From Oscillospiraceae bacterium (GTDB taxonomy: Bacteria > Bacillota > Clostridia > Oscillospirales > Ruminococcaceae): a stretch of 64,000 bases of DNA. Within the stretch, counting starts at the first letter, position 1. Each line of letters starts with the position of its first letter. Both the position numbers and the translations under genes were made by a program. Below, piece by piece: positions 46,983 to 54,211 of this stretch. The notes under the pieces were generated by a model. It made no database searches. It was given only the letters and a program-made list of their open reading frames with translations, and was not told where the DNA came from. The DNA is taken from the NCBI GenBank assembly GCA_012520915.1, contig JAAYNJ010000010.1, positions 62,001 through 126,000 of the forward strand. Direction: 5' to 3'.

Positions 46983-48719
46983 ATGGCTCTCGATTCGGTG
47001 ATGATAAGAATAATTGCAGACGAACTCCTCGGTTGCGTTTTAGGTTCAAGGATTGACAGAATTACCATGCCCAGACGCGATGCGGTGTTGTTGTCTCTTA
47101 GAAATAAACACTCCCAAAACAAACTTTTTATTTCGGCACGATCGGGAGCAGCGAGAATAAATCTGACGGAAAGAGAATTTGAAAATCCCAAAACCCCTCC
47201 GGGATTTTGTATGTTGCTGAGGAAATATTTGGGCTCCGGTAGAATATCTGACATCGAAACTATTGAAGGCGAGAGGATAATTCTGTTTTATATCGATGCA
47301 ATCAATGAAATTGGCGACAGAACGCGCCTGACACTTTCGGTTGAACTCATGGGAAGATACTCCAATATTGTGCTTGTAAATGAGGAAAATGTGATTATTG
47401 ATGCTTTGAAGCATATTGATTCTCAAGATAGAGATAAAAGAACGATATTGCCGGGACATCCTTTCACCTATCCTCCAAAAATAAATAAGACTCCGCTGTC
47501 AGACGAAACTTCCGAAATAGTTGATAAAATCCGAAAGAGCAAGGGGACAATTTCCAAGGCTGTGCTGGATACGATTCTCGGAATAGGACCTGTAGTGGCG
47601 AGGGAGATTGCCTGGAGGACCGACAAATTTGATGGCGAAGCTGCGGGTATGGATGAAGAAACCGCAGAGAAGCTTTTCACATCCGTAGATGAAGTGAAGC
47701 TTGCGGCCGCGGGTAAAAACAGGTTGTTGTCAATAGTCTATTATGAAGGCAGGCCTGTAGAATATTCCTTTCTGCCATTGACACAATACGAAGATTTGGA
47801 ATTTGTGCCATTTGAATCGGTATCCGAGTTGCTGGACAGTTATTGGAAGGAACGGGAAGACGAAGAACTTAAAAAGGCGCGATCCCATGATTTGATGTCA
47901 AAAATAAATGCGCTTTTAGAAAAAGTGGCAAAGAGAAAAAAGGTCAGAGAAGAAGACTTGAAAGATACATCACGAAGCGAAGAACTGAAACTGTTCGGAG
48001 ATTTGATAACGTCGAATATACACAATATTGAAAAGGGAAAAGAATCTGTCAATTTATACGATTATTACAATGATTGTATCATTGATATTCCCCTTGACCC
48101 GAGAATGTCGCCTCCTCAAAATGCACAAAATTACTATAAACGCTATAGAAAACTGACAAACGCAGCGAAAGTGTTGACCGAGCTGATTTATGAAGACAGT
48201 GAGGAACAAAAGTACCTTGAATCTGTGAAATACTATATAGAAAATGCGGTTTCGGTCCAAGAATATGCCGAGTTGAGGGAAGAGTTGGAAAACGCCGGTT
48301 ATTTCAAGAAGTCATCCGCTAAAAAAACATCGGAAAAGAAATCGGATTTTATTCGTTACCGAACCTCCGACGGTCATAATGTAACAGTGGGAAAAAACAA
48401 TAAATCGAATGAAAGATTGACCTTTAGTGCTGCGAGAAAAAGTGACTACTGGTTTCATGTTAAGGGAGCTCCCGGAAGTCACGTTATATTGACTGTTAGG
48501 GACGAGATGCCATCAGACACGGCACTCGGTGAAGCTGCAATGATTGCGGCGTATCACAGCTCTCAATCGGGCGGAGAACTCGTTCCCGTAGACTATACCG
48601 AAGTTAAAAACCTTAAAAAAATAAAAGGCAAAAGAGTAGGAATGGTCAGCTACTCAAACTACAAGACGGCCTTCGTTACTCCTGACAACAAGATTGAAGA
48701 AATGAGAATAGATGGATAA
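46983..48719 (+). CDS. rqcH: RqcH, ribosome-associated quality-control NFACT protein
   Basis: 578-residue NFACT (FbpA/Rqc2) family protein; RqcH binds stalled 50S-peptidyl-tRNA and adds alanine tails to mark incomplete chains. NFACT-N domain at residues 1-180 (CMLLRKYLGSGRISDIETIEGERII near 78-102, VELMGRYSNIVLVNEENVIIDALKHI near 120-145), helix-hairpin-helix region near 190-215, coiled-coil near 290-430 and NFACT-R (DUF814) near 455-570 with DYWFHVKGAPGSHVI and AAYHSSQSGG. Its end overlaps the next gene by eight bases. Confidence 0.93.
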   Translation: MALDSVMIRIIADELLGCVLGSRIDRITMPRRDAVLLSLRNKHSQNKLFISARSGAARINLTEREFENPKTPPGFCMLLRKYLGSGRISDIETIEGERIILFYIDAINEIGDRTRLTLSVELMGRYSNIVLVNEENVIIDALKHIDSQDRDKRTILPGHPFTYPPKINKTPLSDETSEIVDKIRKSKGTISKAVLDTILGIGPVVAREIAWRTDKFDGEAAGMDEETAEKLFTSVDEVKLAAAGKNRLLSIVYYEGRPVEYSFLPLTQYEDLEFVPFESVSELLDSYWKEREDEELKKARSHDLMSKINALLEKVAKRKKVREEDLKDTSRSEELKLFGDLITSNIHNIEKGKESVNLYDYYNDCIIDIPLDPRMSPPQNAQNYYKRYRKLTNAAKVLTELIYEDSEEQKYLESVKYYIENAVSVQEYAELREELENAGYFKKSSAKKTSEKKSDFIRYRTSDGHNVTVGKNNKSNERLTFSAARKSDYWFHVKGAPGSHVILTVRDEMPSDTALGEAAMIAAYHSSQSGGELVPVDYTEVKNLKKIKGKRVGMVSYSNYKTAFVTPDNKIEEMRIDG

Positions 48720-49872
48720 GGGTATCTCCACAAAAAACAAGAAAATTTATCTCGACAATGCTGCTACAACCAAGATTTCCAAAGAAAGTCTAAGAGCAAT
48801 GAGAGAGGTCTCTGAGGAGTATTATGCAAACCCCTCATCGCTCTATGCTTCAGGGATTAATTCCCGAAAGTTGATAGAAAATTCTCGAAAAACAGTTGCA
48901 GAAGCATTGGGTTGTGAGCCGGATGAATTTGTCTTTACATCATCGGGAACCGAATCGAATAATATTGCGGTTTTAGGATCATATTTAGCGAGGAAAAATT
49001 TCGGGGAGAACATAGTAGTAACCGGATACGAGCATCCAAGTGTATATGAAACAATGCGGTTTCTCGAAAAAGAAGGTGTGGAAATAAGGTGGATAAACCC
49101 GGACAGTTCAGGAACCGTCAATGTGAACTCGATTTTAGAATCGGTAGACAAAAAAACCGCTCTCGTTTCCGCGATGCACACAAATAATGAAATTGGCTCT
49201 GTGCTTGATGTCGAAAAGATTGCAAAAAGGGTAAAATCTATCAATTCGAGAACGGCGGTTCACTGTGATTTCGTTCAGGGTTTTTTAAAACAAAGCATCG
49301 AAATAAAGTATTTGGATATTGTTTCAATAAGCGGACATAAAGTACACGGACCAAAGAATGTCGGGGGTCTATATAAAAAGAAAAACCTCAATTTTTTCAG
49401 CACCGTTTTTGGAGGAAGTCAGGAAGGCGGAGTAAGAAGCGGAACGGAGAATCTGATTCTGATTCCCGCATTTTCCGCGGCGGTAAGTTGCTATGATACT
49501 GAAAAAAATGCAATACATGCACGCTTGTTGAATGATGAACTCAGAAAGGGATTGAGAGAGCTCGGTGGAATTGTAATTAATTCACCTGAAGATGCATCGC
49601 CTTTTATTTTAAATTTTTCCGTACCGGGTTATAACTCCGAAACGTTGATGCGGTATTTGGATGAAAACGGAATTGAGATATCTGCCGGTTCCGCCTGTTC
49701 AGGCATAAAGGACAGCAGTACGTTAACCGCTATGGGACTGCACAGAGATATTATCAAATCATCTTTAAGAGCAGGGTTTTCTTTGGAAAACAGTACGGAA
49801 GATATTGAGTATCTGCTAAGTTTGATTGAAGGGGCAAGAAAGAAACTTACCCCGAGTAGGAGAGGTAGATGA
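48712..49872 (+). CDS. Cysteine desulfurase paired with ThiI
   Basis: 386-residue class V PLP enzyme that takes sulfur from cysteine as a protein persulfide. Seen: YLDNAATTKIS near the N terminus, SGTESNNIAVLG near 84, MHTNNEIGSVLD near 155, PLP Lys in SISGHKVHGPKNVGGLY near 205 and the catalytic cysteine in SAGSACSGIKDSS near 325. The short overlap with thiI downstream (4 bases) and the family type (NifS/IscS-like, as in Bacillus nifZ-thiI) suggest it supplies sulfur for 4-thiouridine in tRNA. Confidence 0.93.
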   Translation: MDKGISTKNKKIYLDNAATTKISKESLRAMREVSEEYYANPSSLYASGINSRKLIENSRKTVAEALGCEPDEFVFTSSGTESNNIAVLGSYLARKNFGENIVVTGYEHPSVYETMRFLEKEGVEIRWINPDSSGTVNVNSILESVDKKTALVSAMHTNNEIGSVLDVEKIAKRVKSINSRTAVHCDFVQGFLKQSIEIKYLDIVSISGHKVHGPKNVGGLYKKKNLNFFSTVFGGSQEGGVRSGTENLILIPAFSAAVSCYDTEKNAIHARLLNDELRKGLRELGGIVINSPEDASPFILNFSVPGYNSETLMRYLDENGIEISAGSACSGIKDSSTLTAMGLHRDIIKSSLRAGFSLENSTEDIEYLLSLIEGARKKLTPSRRGR

Positions 49873-51041
49873 AAGAAGTTATGCTTGCGAAATACGGAGA
49901 ATTGGCTCTGAAGGGAAAGAATAAGAGCCAGTTTGAAGGATTGCTTCTTAAAAGCATAAGGAAGAGACTTTTGAAATTCGGAGATTTCGATATAAAAAAA
50001 GCACAGTCGACAATATATGTCATACCTGCAAGTGAGGGCTTCGACATCGATGCCGCAACATCTGCGCTTACGAGAGTATTCGGGATATCTTCCGTTAACA
50101 GAGCTGCCGTTGTAGAAAAGGATATAAATGCCATATCAAAAGTTTCAGCAGAGTATCTGCGTGATGAACTTGCGTCTGCGGACACATTTAAGGTTGAGGC
50201 GAAAAGATCGGACAAAAGTTTTTACCTTGACTCCATGCAGATCGCCTCACAGATAGGTTCAGAAATACTGTCAAAATTTAAAAATCTTAAGGTCGATGTT
50301 AAGGAGCCTGATGTAAGAGTTGTCATAGAGATAAGGGATTACGGCGCTTACATTCACAGCGGAAATATAAGGGGGGCAGGCGGTATGCCGCAGGGAAGCG
50401 GCGGCAGGGGACTGGTTCTTCTTTCCGGAGGAATAGATTCGCCTGTTGCATTGCATATGGCTGCAAAGCGGGGGTTGGATGTTGTGGCCGTTCACTTTAT
50501 GTCGCCTCCTTATACGAGTCCGATGGCGCAGGAAAAAATTCGCAAAATTTCAGAAAAACTGTGCGACTGGGTTGGCAGGCTTCCCGTTCTGTTTGTGAGT
50601 TTTACCGAAATTCAAGAAAGAATAGCGAAGTACTGTCCGGACAACCTGTCTACTGTTTTAATGAGAAGAAGTATGATGAGGATTGCAGAAAAGATTTCCG
50701 CAAAGGAAAGATGTGGTGCGATAATCACGGGTGAGAGCTTAGGTCAAGTAGCTTCACAGACTCTCGAGGCGCTTATCTGTACCGATGATGCGACATCATT
50801 GCCGGTTTTAAGACCGCTCATATGTTTGGATAAATCGGAAACGATTCTAAGGGCGAGACAAATAGGAACTTTTGAACCTTCGATATTGCCGTATGAAGAT
50901 TGTTGCACCGTTTTTACACCCAAAAATCCGAAGACAAAGCCCAATTTGAGGGAAGTAATATTTGCGGAAGAAAAAGGGAACTATTTGGAGATTGAATCTG
51001 AAGTGGCGGATAATTATCAGGTAGAAATATTTAGATATTAA
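49869..51041 (+). CDS. thiI: ThiI, tRNA 4-thiouridine synthase
   Basis: Uses ATP and a persulfide donor to thiolate U8 in tRNA. 390 residues: N-terminal ferredoxin-like and THUMP domains (LAKYGELALKGKNKSQFEGLL at the start; RDYGAYIHSGNIRGAGGMPQG near 155-175), then the PP-loop domain with LLSGGIDSPVALHMAAKRG near 182-200 and ITGESLGQVASQTLE near 285. The C-terminal rhodanese domain of E. coli ThiI is absent, as in Bacillus, so the cysteine desulfurase just upstream must deliver the sulfur directly. Confidence 0.95.
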   Translation: MKEVMLAKYGELALKGKNKSQFEGLLLKSIRKRLLKFGDFDIKKAQSTIYVIPASEGFDIDAATSALTRVFGISSVNRAAVVEKDINAISKVSAEYLRDELASADTFKVEAKRSDKSFYLDSMQIASQIGSEILSKFKNLKVDVKEPDVRVVIEIRDYGAYIHSGNIRGAGGMPQGSGGRGLVLLSGGIDSPVALHMAAKRGLDVVAVHFMSPPYTSPMAQEKIRKISEKLCDWVGRLPVLFVSFTEIQERIAKYCPDNLSTVLMRRSMMRIAEKISAKERCGAIITGESLGQVASQTLEALICTDDATSLPVLRPLICLDKSETILRARQIGTFEPSILPYEDCCTVFTPKNPKTKPNLREVIFAEEKGNYLEIESEVADNYQVEIFRY

Positions 51042-51058
51042 AGTCACGGGGAGTATTG

Positions 51059-54000
51059 ATGAAAGCAGAAATAATATCAGTAGGAGATGAAGTTTTAAGA
51101 GGTGATGTTGAAAATGTAGACACATCATATCTTTCAATGCGCCTAATCGATCTTGGATTCAGTGTAGAACGTCACACTTCGGTCGGAGATAATGAAACCG
51201 ATATAAAGTTTGCCGTAACCTCTGCTTTGGAAAGGAGCCGGGTTATTGTTATAACCGGCGGACTCGGGCCGACAATAGACGATATGACAAGAAAATCGGT
51301 TGCAAAAGCCGTAGACAGAAAACTCATCTTCAACAAGGATATAGCCGATAATCTCGAAAAGTGGTTTTCAAACAGAGGATACAAAATAACGGAAAACAAC
51401 TTCAGACAAGCCATGGTTATTGAGGGTGCCGAATTATTGAGTAATGAGAACGGAACTGCACCCGGACTTTATCTTAATTATGAAAAATCTACGATAATCC
51501 TTCTTCCCGGACCACCGCGGGAACTGATACCCATGTTCGAAAATGAAGTCGTTCCAAAACTGGAACTGCTGACCGACTCGGACAGCTATTTGATAACGAT
51601 GAATACCTTCGGCATAGGGGAATCGGCACTGGAAGAGGAGCTGAAGGATCTTCTATACGCAGAGAACCCTTCTGCAGCACTCTATGCGAAAACCGGGGAA
51701 GTTCAGATTAGGATCACTGCCAGGGAAAGCGATGCTCAGAATGCGATGATTAAGGCTAATGAACTGGAGTCAAAAATAAAACACAGATTGGGAAGCTTTT
51801 TATACAGCGAGGGCAAAAAAAGTCTTCCGGATGTTGTAGTTGACTTACTGAGAATGAGCGGTGCTAAAGTCGCGGTTGCAGAGAGTTGCACCGGAGGTAT
51901 GGTATCTCAAATGCTCACGGATATACCCGGTTCTTCGGAAGTGTTTGATTACGGAATCGTATCATATGGTGATTGGATTAAAGAAAAGAAACTCTTTGTC
52001 AACAAAAAATCGATAAAAAAGTATTCCTCTGTCAGCGGTAAAGTAGCCGAAGAGATGGCAAAAGGAGTTATGAAAGAGGGAAAAGCCGACTACGGGATTG
52101 CCGTAACCGGGATTGCAGGGCCCGGAAGGGGAGATTACGACTCTGATGAGGTGGGACTTGTATACATTGCAGTAGCGGATAAAAACGGTACCTATGTAAA
52201 GGAGTTCCATTTCGGCGATAGGGGCAGAGAGTTTATTAGAATAATTTCGGCGAAAAATGCATTTGACATGTTGAGAAGGCTCATTCTCGGTCTGGAAATT
52301 ATTGGCATCAACACCGAAAGCTCGAAGAATATAAAAAGCAATAAAAAGATAGACAGGGAGATAAAGTCAAACAAAAAGTCATTATTTGTTCTTCTTGTGC
52401 TGACTTTAGTTCTGGCTTCTTTTTCAACGGCATATTTTTATAAAAGAAATAATTTTGATTTTACCGACGATACCGATATGAAAATAAAGACCTTGTCAGA
52501 TCGGTCCGGCAGCTCTTTGTCCGATAACCCTTCGCTTAGAGACTTGCTGGCAATGAACCCTGATACCGTGGGATGGCTCGAACTGCCGAAAATTTTTGGT
52601 CATGCTGTCGTAAGGTGGAACGGCGAGAATAAGCAGAATCTTATGTTGGATGAAAGGATAGACCTATCGGATGAGTGTTACAACATAGTTATTTATGAAG
52701 AAGTCCTTGATACGGAACAAAGCGATTTTTCTCGCTATCTTGAACTTGAGTTTTTAAATAATAATAAAACATTGTCGTTCGAAAGCATTTTATTTAAAAA
52801 AAGAGAGTATGTTGTCGTTTCTGTATATGAATCCTCAAAAAACAAGTATCATGGCGAATACCCCGAACTGTTTGATAAAACGGAATTTGAAGACACGACT
52901 GAATTAAGGGATTTTATTATCGATCTGAAACTCAGGTCGCGTTTTGAAACGAATGTCGACATTGTGACCGGAGACAGGTTTTTAACTTTGATTTCACAAG
53001 GAGAAAATGAAGATAATGATAGGACGGTCATCATCCTCCGTGAATTGAGAAGAAATGAAATTGCATCTTTTGATGATGCAATTGTAAGTGATGGAATTTC
53101 AAATACAGGTGCATGGTATGATGAAAATAAAAAACTTAAATCAGAGGTTGAAGCTGAAATTAAAGCATGGAATGATTGGCTAACCGACAACAACAGCAGA
53201 CTCTTCAACCTTGATTTAGACGGCTTAAACGATATTGTCAGAGAGTTGACCGGCGGTGAAAAGCCGGCTATTGGTGAGACGGGATCGGAGGAAAACTTAA
53301 TTGACGGAAGCGCTCAGACGGTTCCCGGGACTGAAAAACCGACATCTAATTCTACAACTACTTCTCCGCCTGAAACCGGAGGGACATCACCTCCCTCCAC
53401 CCCCAATCTCCCGGATACACCTCCAACGGCGGGCGAAGAAATTACCGTGACAAGTTATAGCACAGGTAGGAAAATATCCGGTACGCCGACGGATATTGTG
53501 AGTATGATTGTTGAAGCTGAAGTGGGTCCGTCTTTCAATCCGGAAGCGATTAAAGCTCAGGCGGTAGCGGTAATCACATATCTCAAATATTCCTACAGAA
53601 CCGATTCCGCTCCGAAAATGCCCCTTCTTTCGGCATCTCCAACAGTAAAAAATCTTGTATCCGAGGTAATAGATACGGCTATGTACTATAACGGTTCTGT
53701 AATATTCTCCCCATATTGCTCATCAATGGCGGGCAGAAGCAATGGAAGCGGAGAGGTTTGGTCACAAAGTCTACCCTATCTTGTATCGGTTGAGAGCGTT
53801 CATGACAGCAAACTAAGCAATTACAATGTGAAATATACCTATTCAAAAGAAGAAATGAAGAAAACATTGGAAGATTATTATGAAATTCAGCTTTCGGATA
53901 CCCCGGAAAATTGGATAGGGATTTTAGATTACACGTCGGGAGGATACGTAGGAAACATGTCGATAGACGGTCAATATCAAACGACCGGTTCCAGATTCAG

Positions 54001-54211
54001 ATCCAACTGCATGCATATAAGGTCAGCGGCATTTACCTGTGAATATAACGCGGAAACGGGCATGTTCACAATTATCACCAGCGGTTACGGACACGGTGTA
54101 GGCATGAGCCAGTACGGCGCAAATTTTTATGCCAAATATGACGGTTGGGATTATAAGACAATACTCAGACACTATTATCGGGGAGTTGAGTTTAAAGAAT
54201 CCGGTTGGTAG
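51059..54211 (+). CDS. Four-part fusion: CinA + membrane helix + inactive sortase-B-like domain + SpoIID domain
   Basis: 1050 residues from the ATG at 51059 (GGGGAG upstream). Residues 1-415 are a whole CinA: N-terminal MoeA-like domain (IISVGDEVLRGDVENV, ITGGLGPTIDDMTRK, LPGPPRELIPMF) and C-terminal deamidase domain (AVAESCTGGMVSQMLTDIPGSS, GIAVTGIAGPG). A basic linker leads to a transmembrane helix at 442-463. Residues 490-670 resemble sortase B (NPDTVGWLELP, late Arg in NDRTVII) but catalytic His is Glu548 and Cys is Gln647. After a Pro/Thr/Ser-rich linker (735-793), residues 795-1050 are SpoIID/LytB: IVEAEVGPSFNPEAIKAQAVA with the likely catalytic Glu821, CSSMAGRSN and SGYGHGVGMSQYGANFYA. 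CinA would be cytosolic and the rest extracellular. Confidence 0.9.
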   Translation: MKAEIISVGDEVLRGDVENVDTSYLSMRLIDLGFSVERHTSVGDNETDIKFAVTSALERSRVIVITGGLGPTIDDMTRKSVAKAVDRKLIFNKDIADNLEKWFSNRGYKITENNFRQAMVIEGAELLSNENGTAPGLYLNYEKSTIILLPGPPRELIPMFENEVVPKLELLTDSDSYLITMNTFGIGESALEEELKDLLYAENPSAALYAKTGEVQIRITARESDAQNAMIKANELESKIKHRLGSFLYSEGKKSLPDVVVDLLRMSGAKVAVAESCTGGMVSQMLTDIPGSSEVFDYGIVSYGDWIKEKKLFVNKKSIKKYSSVSGKVAEEMAKGVMKEGKADYGIAVTGIAGPGRGDYDSDEVGLVYIAVADKNGTYVKEFHFGDRGREFIRIISAKNAFDMLRRLILGLEIIGINTESSKNIKSNKKIDREIKSNKKSLFVLLVLTLVLASFSTAYFYKRNNFDFTDDTDMKIKTLSDRSGSSLSDNPSLRDLLAMNPDTVGWLELPKIFGHAVVRWNGENKQNLMLDERIDLSDECYNIVIYEEVLDTEQSDFSRYLELEFLNNNKTLSFESILFKKREYVVVSVYESSKNKYHGEYPELFDKTEFEDTTELRDFIIDLKLRSRFETNVDIVTGDRFLTLISQGENEDNDRTVIILRELRRNEIASFDDAIVSDGISNTGAWYDENKKLKSEVEAEIKAWNDWLTDNNSRLFNLDLDGLNDIVRELTGGEKPAIGETGSEENLIDGSAQTVPGTEKPTSNSTTTSPPETGGTSPPSTPNLPDTPPTAGEEITVTSYSTGRKISGTPTDIVSMIVEAEVGPSFNPEAIKAQAVAVITYLKYSYRTDSAPKMPLLSASPTVKNLVSEVIDTAMYYNGSVIFSPYCSSMAGRSNGSGEVWSQSLPYLVSVESVHDSKLSNYNVKYTYSKEEMKKTLEDYYEIQLSDTPENWIGILDYTSGGYVGNMSIDGQYQTTGSRFRSNCMHIRSAAFTCEYNAETGMFTIITSGYGHGVGMSQYGANFYAKYDGWDYKTILRHYYRGVEFKESGW

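Follow-up and report, generated by a model that had tools for sequence, protein, structure and literature searches.

Among the described proteins closest to the one presented here, CinA of Thermus thermophilus has the conserved acidic residues D45, D76 and E156 and forms an asymmetric dimer, in which one catalytic site is found in two conformational states (PMC4246079). Among the PncC residues of A. tumefaciens, S31, Y58, K63 and R145 were shown to be needed (PMC5384747). The catalytic glutamate of C. difficile SpoIID is E101, and this enzyme requires an amidase partner (PMC6221140). The window, the whole stretch of 64,000 nucleotides that was analysed, contains a gene in which a CinA, a class B sortase-like domain and a SpoIID domain are joined in a single chain. 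Each domain family is already known. The open-licence literature yielded no paper combining SpoIID, sortase and CinA, none on "class B sortase" with SpoIID and none on "pseudosortase", in agreement with the initial annotation, which knew of no characterised protein with this arrangement. No description of the arrangement, of its recurrence or of the decay of its modules in two directions was found in that literature.

Domain structure of the fusion protein

The gene occupies positions 51059..54211 on the forward strand, which also carries all the window features given below, and consists of one open frame of 1050 residues with no internal stops. An alternative TTG start lies at 51056, one codon upstream. 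The protein is composed of CinA (residues 1-410), one transmembrane helix (about 440-460), the sortase-B-fold domain (479-708) and SpoIID (797-1044). The helix (52376..52438) is the only strongly hydrophobic stretch: hydropathy reaches its maximum of 2.27 in the stretch starting at residue 442, and across the whole protein only the 19-residue stretches starting at 439-444 have a mean hydropathy above 1.6. A Lys-rich segment precedes it, which fits an N-terminus inside the cell. Judged from the sequence, the most likely topology has CinA in the cytosol and SpoIID outside, with the one predicted helix between them. A relative from the same family (G039) matches residues 2-1050 in one open frame with 46% identity (CinA 50%, sortase 26%, SpoIID 66%). 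The single unbroken polypeptide with one membrane helix, as originally described from the sequence, is thus confirmed.

The three Pfam domains of CinA are all present and in order: the N-terminal COG1058/MoCF domain (residues 4-169, 51068..51565; PF00994, 1.6e-30), the KH domain (residues 180-249, 51596..51805; PF18146, 3e-21) and the C-terminal PncC or NMN deamidase domain (residues 255-408, 51821..52282; PF02464, 1.9e-47). Residues 1-410 score 443.7 bits with the NCBIfam profile NF001813, whose cut-off of 379 they exceed. Residues D44, D75 and E155 are conserved and correspond by position to Thermus D45, D76 and E156. The PncC part keeps S276, C277, T278, S293, Y303, K308, T350 and R390, equivalent to S31, C32, T33, S48, Y58, K63, T105 and R145 of A. 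tumefaciens, so that the Ser/Lys catalytic dyad (S276, K308) and the phosphate-binding Tyr and Arg (Y303, R390) are present. The protein also retains 56 of the 58 near-invariant CinA positions, defined as at least 97% invariant among 30 stand-alone CinA proteins. Its PncC domain is the only PF02464 match in its own genome. Since this CinA is complete and the sole copy found, it probably still makes NaMN from NMN and supplies NAD salvage there. Since CinA proteins of other bacteria form dimers, it could also hold two copies of the fusion protein together as a pair.

The middle domain (residues 479-708, 52493..53182) is not matched by the Pfam sortase family PF04203, even at an E value of 10, and was assigned from NCBIfam and PDB matches together with structure comparison. 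The class B sortase profile TIGR03064 matches it with an E value of 1.8e-13 and 50.4 bits, under the cut-off of 153.75. A search of the PDB with the single sequence gave nine matches below 0.01, all of them SrtB chains, the best being Listeria SrtB (1.6e-7), and a profile of 39 aligned relatives gave SrtB at 1e-33 to 1e-55. An AlphaFold model of residues 470-745 (mean pLDDT 76.6, pTM 0.72) superimposes on SrtB structures with Z values of 15.7-19.2, compared with about 11 (maximum 11.7) for the closest-matching sortases of class A or C; its best Foldseek E value is 3.6e-13. Because sortases made up the alignment supplied to AlphaFold, the model is biased toward their fold, but the single-sequence matches to TIGR03064 and the PDB offset this. 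The model and the sequence searches together assign to this domain a class B sortase fold, as had been proposed for residues 490-670.

The catalytic His and Cys of a sortase are both absent. Their positions hold Glu548 (52700..52702) and Gln647 (52997..52999), exactly as first read, and all 56 intact relatives carry His and Cys there. Arg655 (53021..53023), which aligns with S. aureus R233, retains the catalytic Arg. Among 16 relatives lacking both His and Cys this position is Arg in six and Lys in six more. The idea that Arg is kept in every such sortase was rejected; it relied on R661, which aligns with a Lys in S. aureus SrtB, while the catalytic position is R655.

Two modelled helices follow the sortase core (53111-53250), and similar Trp-containing extensions follow inactive sortases at six other loci (L032, L033, L034, L050, L055, L061). 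Immediately ahead of the transmembrane helix, many intact sortases of related gene clusters carry a juxtamembrane motif resembling FPWKGDxxGEVIRK (for example L039:6229-7155, L043:1790-4378, L089:4040-4966 and L090:5339-6388, among others); the window protein is without it. The only PF04203 match in the own genome is another sortase (L091:349-2238, contig C20), with His and Cys motifs visible by eye. It adjoins an open reading frame of 366 residues, which by eye resembles a fused methionine sulfoxide reductase A/B.

A linker rich in Ser, Thr, Pro and Gly (residues 732-791, 53252..53431) leads to the SpoIID domain (residues 797-1044, 53447..54190). This domain matches TIGR02669 (7.6e-33; 114.6 bits, above the cut-off of 83.3) and PF08486 (23.7 bits against 23), while the equivalog profile for stage II sporulation protein D, TIGR02870, gives 125.7 bits, under its cut-off of 234.75. 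Alignment to the SpoIID structures 4rwr, 5txu and 5i1t places E821 (codon 53519) at the catalytic glutamate, equivalent to E101 of C. difficile, and the C-terminal motif GYGHGVGMSQYG lies at 54083-54118. The glutamate is present in 111 of the 112 SpoIID domains aligned, the remaining row being a gap. At four loci (L044:5241-6761, L150:8633-9880, L122:5437-6594, L159:3047-4300) the C-terminal part of the profile stands ahead of the part with the catalytic Glu, an apparent circular permutation.

The fusion protein is the only PF08486 match in its genome. A stage II sporulation protein D implies a sporulating host, and family searches of this genome gave no match to Spo0A_C or SpoIVA; the estimated completeness of the genome is 96%, which makes such absences probable without making them certain. 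Since neither of these hallmark genes of sporulation was detected, the SpoIID part would most likely act in vegetative wall turnover. This suggests that SpoIID-type enzymes act outside sporulation in this bacterial family.

Recurrence of the fusion and gene order in relatives

The gene lies 17 bases downstream of a gene that we take, from its sequence, to be ThiI-like (49869..51041; family c0). This in turn overlaps by 4 bases a cysteine desulfurase gene named NifS-like from sequence alone (48712..49872; family c1). The cluster is usually found downstream of the same two genes, the ThiI-like family occurring in 38 and the NifS-like family in 34 of 54 related loci.

Among the loci fetched, CinA, sortase and SpoIID are joined in one frame at 19 distinct loci including the window, nearly all from the same family and from many genera. 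The 18 others supply the architecture that had been sought in related genomes. Relatives include Candidatus Neoruminococcus faecicola (L108) and Anaerotruncus sp. S30_Bin7 (L096). In a class-wide search, among the matches listed, only that of the window spans sortase and SpoIID together, but only one other member of its family is among those listed.

Partial fusions also occur: CinA-sortase with a separate spoIID (L040, L042, L043, L044), sortase-SpoIID without CinA (L079, L082) and CinA-SpoIID without a detected sortase (L066, L095). Elsewhere there are separate genes for CinA or PncC, for one to four class B sortases and for SpoIID (L039, L090, L092-L094, L099, L100, L117, L150 and others). 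These may be adjacent and in the same order, as cinA, srtB, spoIID in G014 and as pncC, one or more srtB, spoIID in L092, L099, L100, L117 and L150. CinA, sortase and SpoIID follow one another in this order wherever two or more of the modules occur. The question whether the junction near 52300 is conserved or split has both answers, since it is continuous at the 18 other loci and divided in the genomes with separate genes. Since relatives have the same three modules either as neighbouring genes or fused in other ways, the join is real. The fusion in the window is no lone oddity but one configuration of a gene cluster that is conserved.

Seven loci (L092, L099, L100, L117, L150, L098, L101) have two to four consecutive srtB genes, preceded by pncC (or thiI) and followed by spoIID-like genes. 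At three loci (L094, L105, L107) a gene of family c9 stands between srtB and spoIID; one of these (L107:6456-7478) encodes a cell wall hydrolase with PF07486 and an SH3 domain, which fits a role of the cluster at the wall. Over many Clostridia genomes, genes of NMN deamidases (PncC/CinA) are linked with those of class B sortases and of SpoIID-like enzymes of the wall. Neither a published description of this cluster nor a functional account of the link was found in the open-licence literature.

Loss of catalytic residues in two directions

A set of 72 different sortase domains was compared. All 40 stand-alone domains have the catalytic His and Cys, while the 32 fused domains are divided equally, 16 intact and 16 with both residues lost. 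The Fisher p value of 1.5e-7 for this association ignores shared ancestry and was set aside as evidence. On a tree of the 72 domains every inactive sortase is in a fused protein and two changes are placed, of which the well-supported branches force only one; long branches meet in this tree, which leaves it uncertain how many losses were independent. Because catalytically intact versions belong to the same cluster of genes, the step from enzyme to putative structural module can be traced in sequence.

The reverse situation is found in other fusions, L060, L067, L069 and L096 among them, where the sortase is intact and many active-site residues of CinA are lost. A separate, well-conserved CinA is listed in several genomes with such a fusion, e.g. 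G042, G051, G005, G060, G012, G029 and G048. At L050, L055, L061 and L074 an intact cinA stands beside a gene in which both the CinA and the sortase parts are decayed. L068 is an exception, with the PncC, sortase and SpoIID residues intact and the N-terminal CinA domain decayed.

In small and related samples, the mean pairwise identities for CinA, sortase and SpoIID are 46, 27 and 42% in the group of the window, where the sortase is inactive, and 32, 49 and 52% in fusions with decayed CinA and intact sortase. In these two groups of opposite decay, the identity appears to follow the catalytic state. The contrast is weaker in the group with both modules decayed (50, 52 and 66%). Judged by residues, the module that decays varies with the lineage, being the sortase in some, CinA in others and both in some, and the constant feature is SpoIID with its glutamate. 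The initial annotation had viewed the protein as tying cytosolic metabolism to wall remodelling. The modules are indeed joined in the window, but since the decaying module differs between lineages, a fixed link between NAD metabolism and the wall is not the constant feature.

Proposed role and comparison with known systems

We consider it somewhat probable, on the sequence evidence, that the protein is a membrane-anchored vegetative SpoIID wall enzyme, whose CinA and sortase modules have in part the roles of an anchor and a stalk. A cinA-srtB-spoIID cluster, found downstream of nifS-thiI in relatives, would have been fused to one gene. The product would cross the membrane once, with its SpoIID-type lytic transglycosylase on the outer side of the cell. 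The sortase-fold part, presumably incapable of transpeptidation, may be an extracellular stalk or a spacer that binds peptides and positions SpoIID at the wall. The suggestion that the pseudo-sortase is a scaffold is plausible. In the group of the window this domain diverges faster than its CinA and SpoIID partners, which fits a stalk but plain decay as well.

That divergence also agrees with a neutral origin, in which co-transcribed neighbours lost their stops, the active domains work independently and the pseudo-sortase is a leftover. The order of the domains is that of the genes in relatives, and the upstream genes are only 17 bases away or overlapping. However, many fusions have not deleted their decayed CinA and sortase domains but retain them almost in full, the same-order fusion persists over many genera of one family, and the CinA part is retained in the two CinA-SpoIID proteins where no sortase was detected. 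A neutral fusion is thus a tentative alternative, possible but rather doubtful.

It is also conceivable, although unlikely, that one family of Clostridia has here a conserved system of the envelope, where a cytosolic NAD-salvage module and an extracellular sortase-fold module were fused to a vegetative SpoIID and made regulatory or structural by catalytic loss in one or the other, so that wall cutting is coupled to the cytosolic nucleotide state or to the dimerisation of CinA. A direct coupling across the membrane, in which the ligand state of CinA (NMN or ADP-ribose) controls SpoIID outside and wall turnover is tied to NAD turnover, seems quite unlikely. The catalytic residues of CinA and SpoIID on opposite sides of one predicted helix and the two conformational states of the Thermus site (PMC4246079) would permit it. 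Catalytic sensing is not general, however, since the fused CinA of many relatives has lost its catalytic residues and in others the gene is separate, and a linker of about 60 residues rich in Ser, Thr, Pro and Gly lies ahead of SpoIID.

Very improbable is a pseudo-sortase that captures sorting-signal peptides or the substrates of sortases and delivers them to where SpoIID acts; the fold and Arg655 are kept in the window and substrates may exist, given the one other sortase gene of the genome, but the frequent replacement of this Arg in inactive relatives argues against it. An error of assembly or base calling, or a missed stop, can practically be dismissed. The draft state of the assembly, with 32 contigs, and the separate genes of some relatives, which the initial annotation had named as part of a refuting outcome, speak for such an error, but the full-length frame recurs in G039 and at 17 further distinct loci.

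The membrane-anchored SpoIID enzyme that we favour can be compared with four known systems. With Thermus thermophilus CinA, an NMN deamidase and ADP-ribose pyrophosphatase, it shares the three-part CinA of 410 residues and the published catalytic residues. However, the Thermus protein stands alone, while the CinA of the window is joined via a transmembrane helix to predicted extracellular domains. With the class B sortases of C. perfringens (5b23) and S. aureus (1ng5) it shares the fold over about 170 aligned residues, the N-terminal segment NPDTVGWLELP and the catalytic Arg position, but it has Glu and Gln in place of the catalytic His and Cys and its domain is located between CinA and SpoIID. 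The SpoIID/LytB domain, the catalytic Glu and the C-terminal GYGHGVGMSQ motif are common to the SpoIID lytic transglycosylases of C. difficile (5i1t/5txu) and B. anthracis (4rwr); in the window this domain ends a CinA-sortase protein, in a genome without detected Spo0A and SpoIVA. The pncC/cinA-srtB(1-4)-spoIID-like cluster of other Clostridia has the same modules, the same order and the same usual site downstream of thiI, but there the genes are separate and the sortases are catalytically intact.
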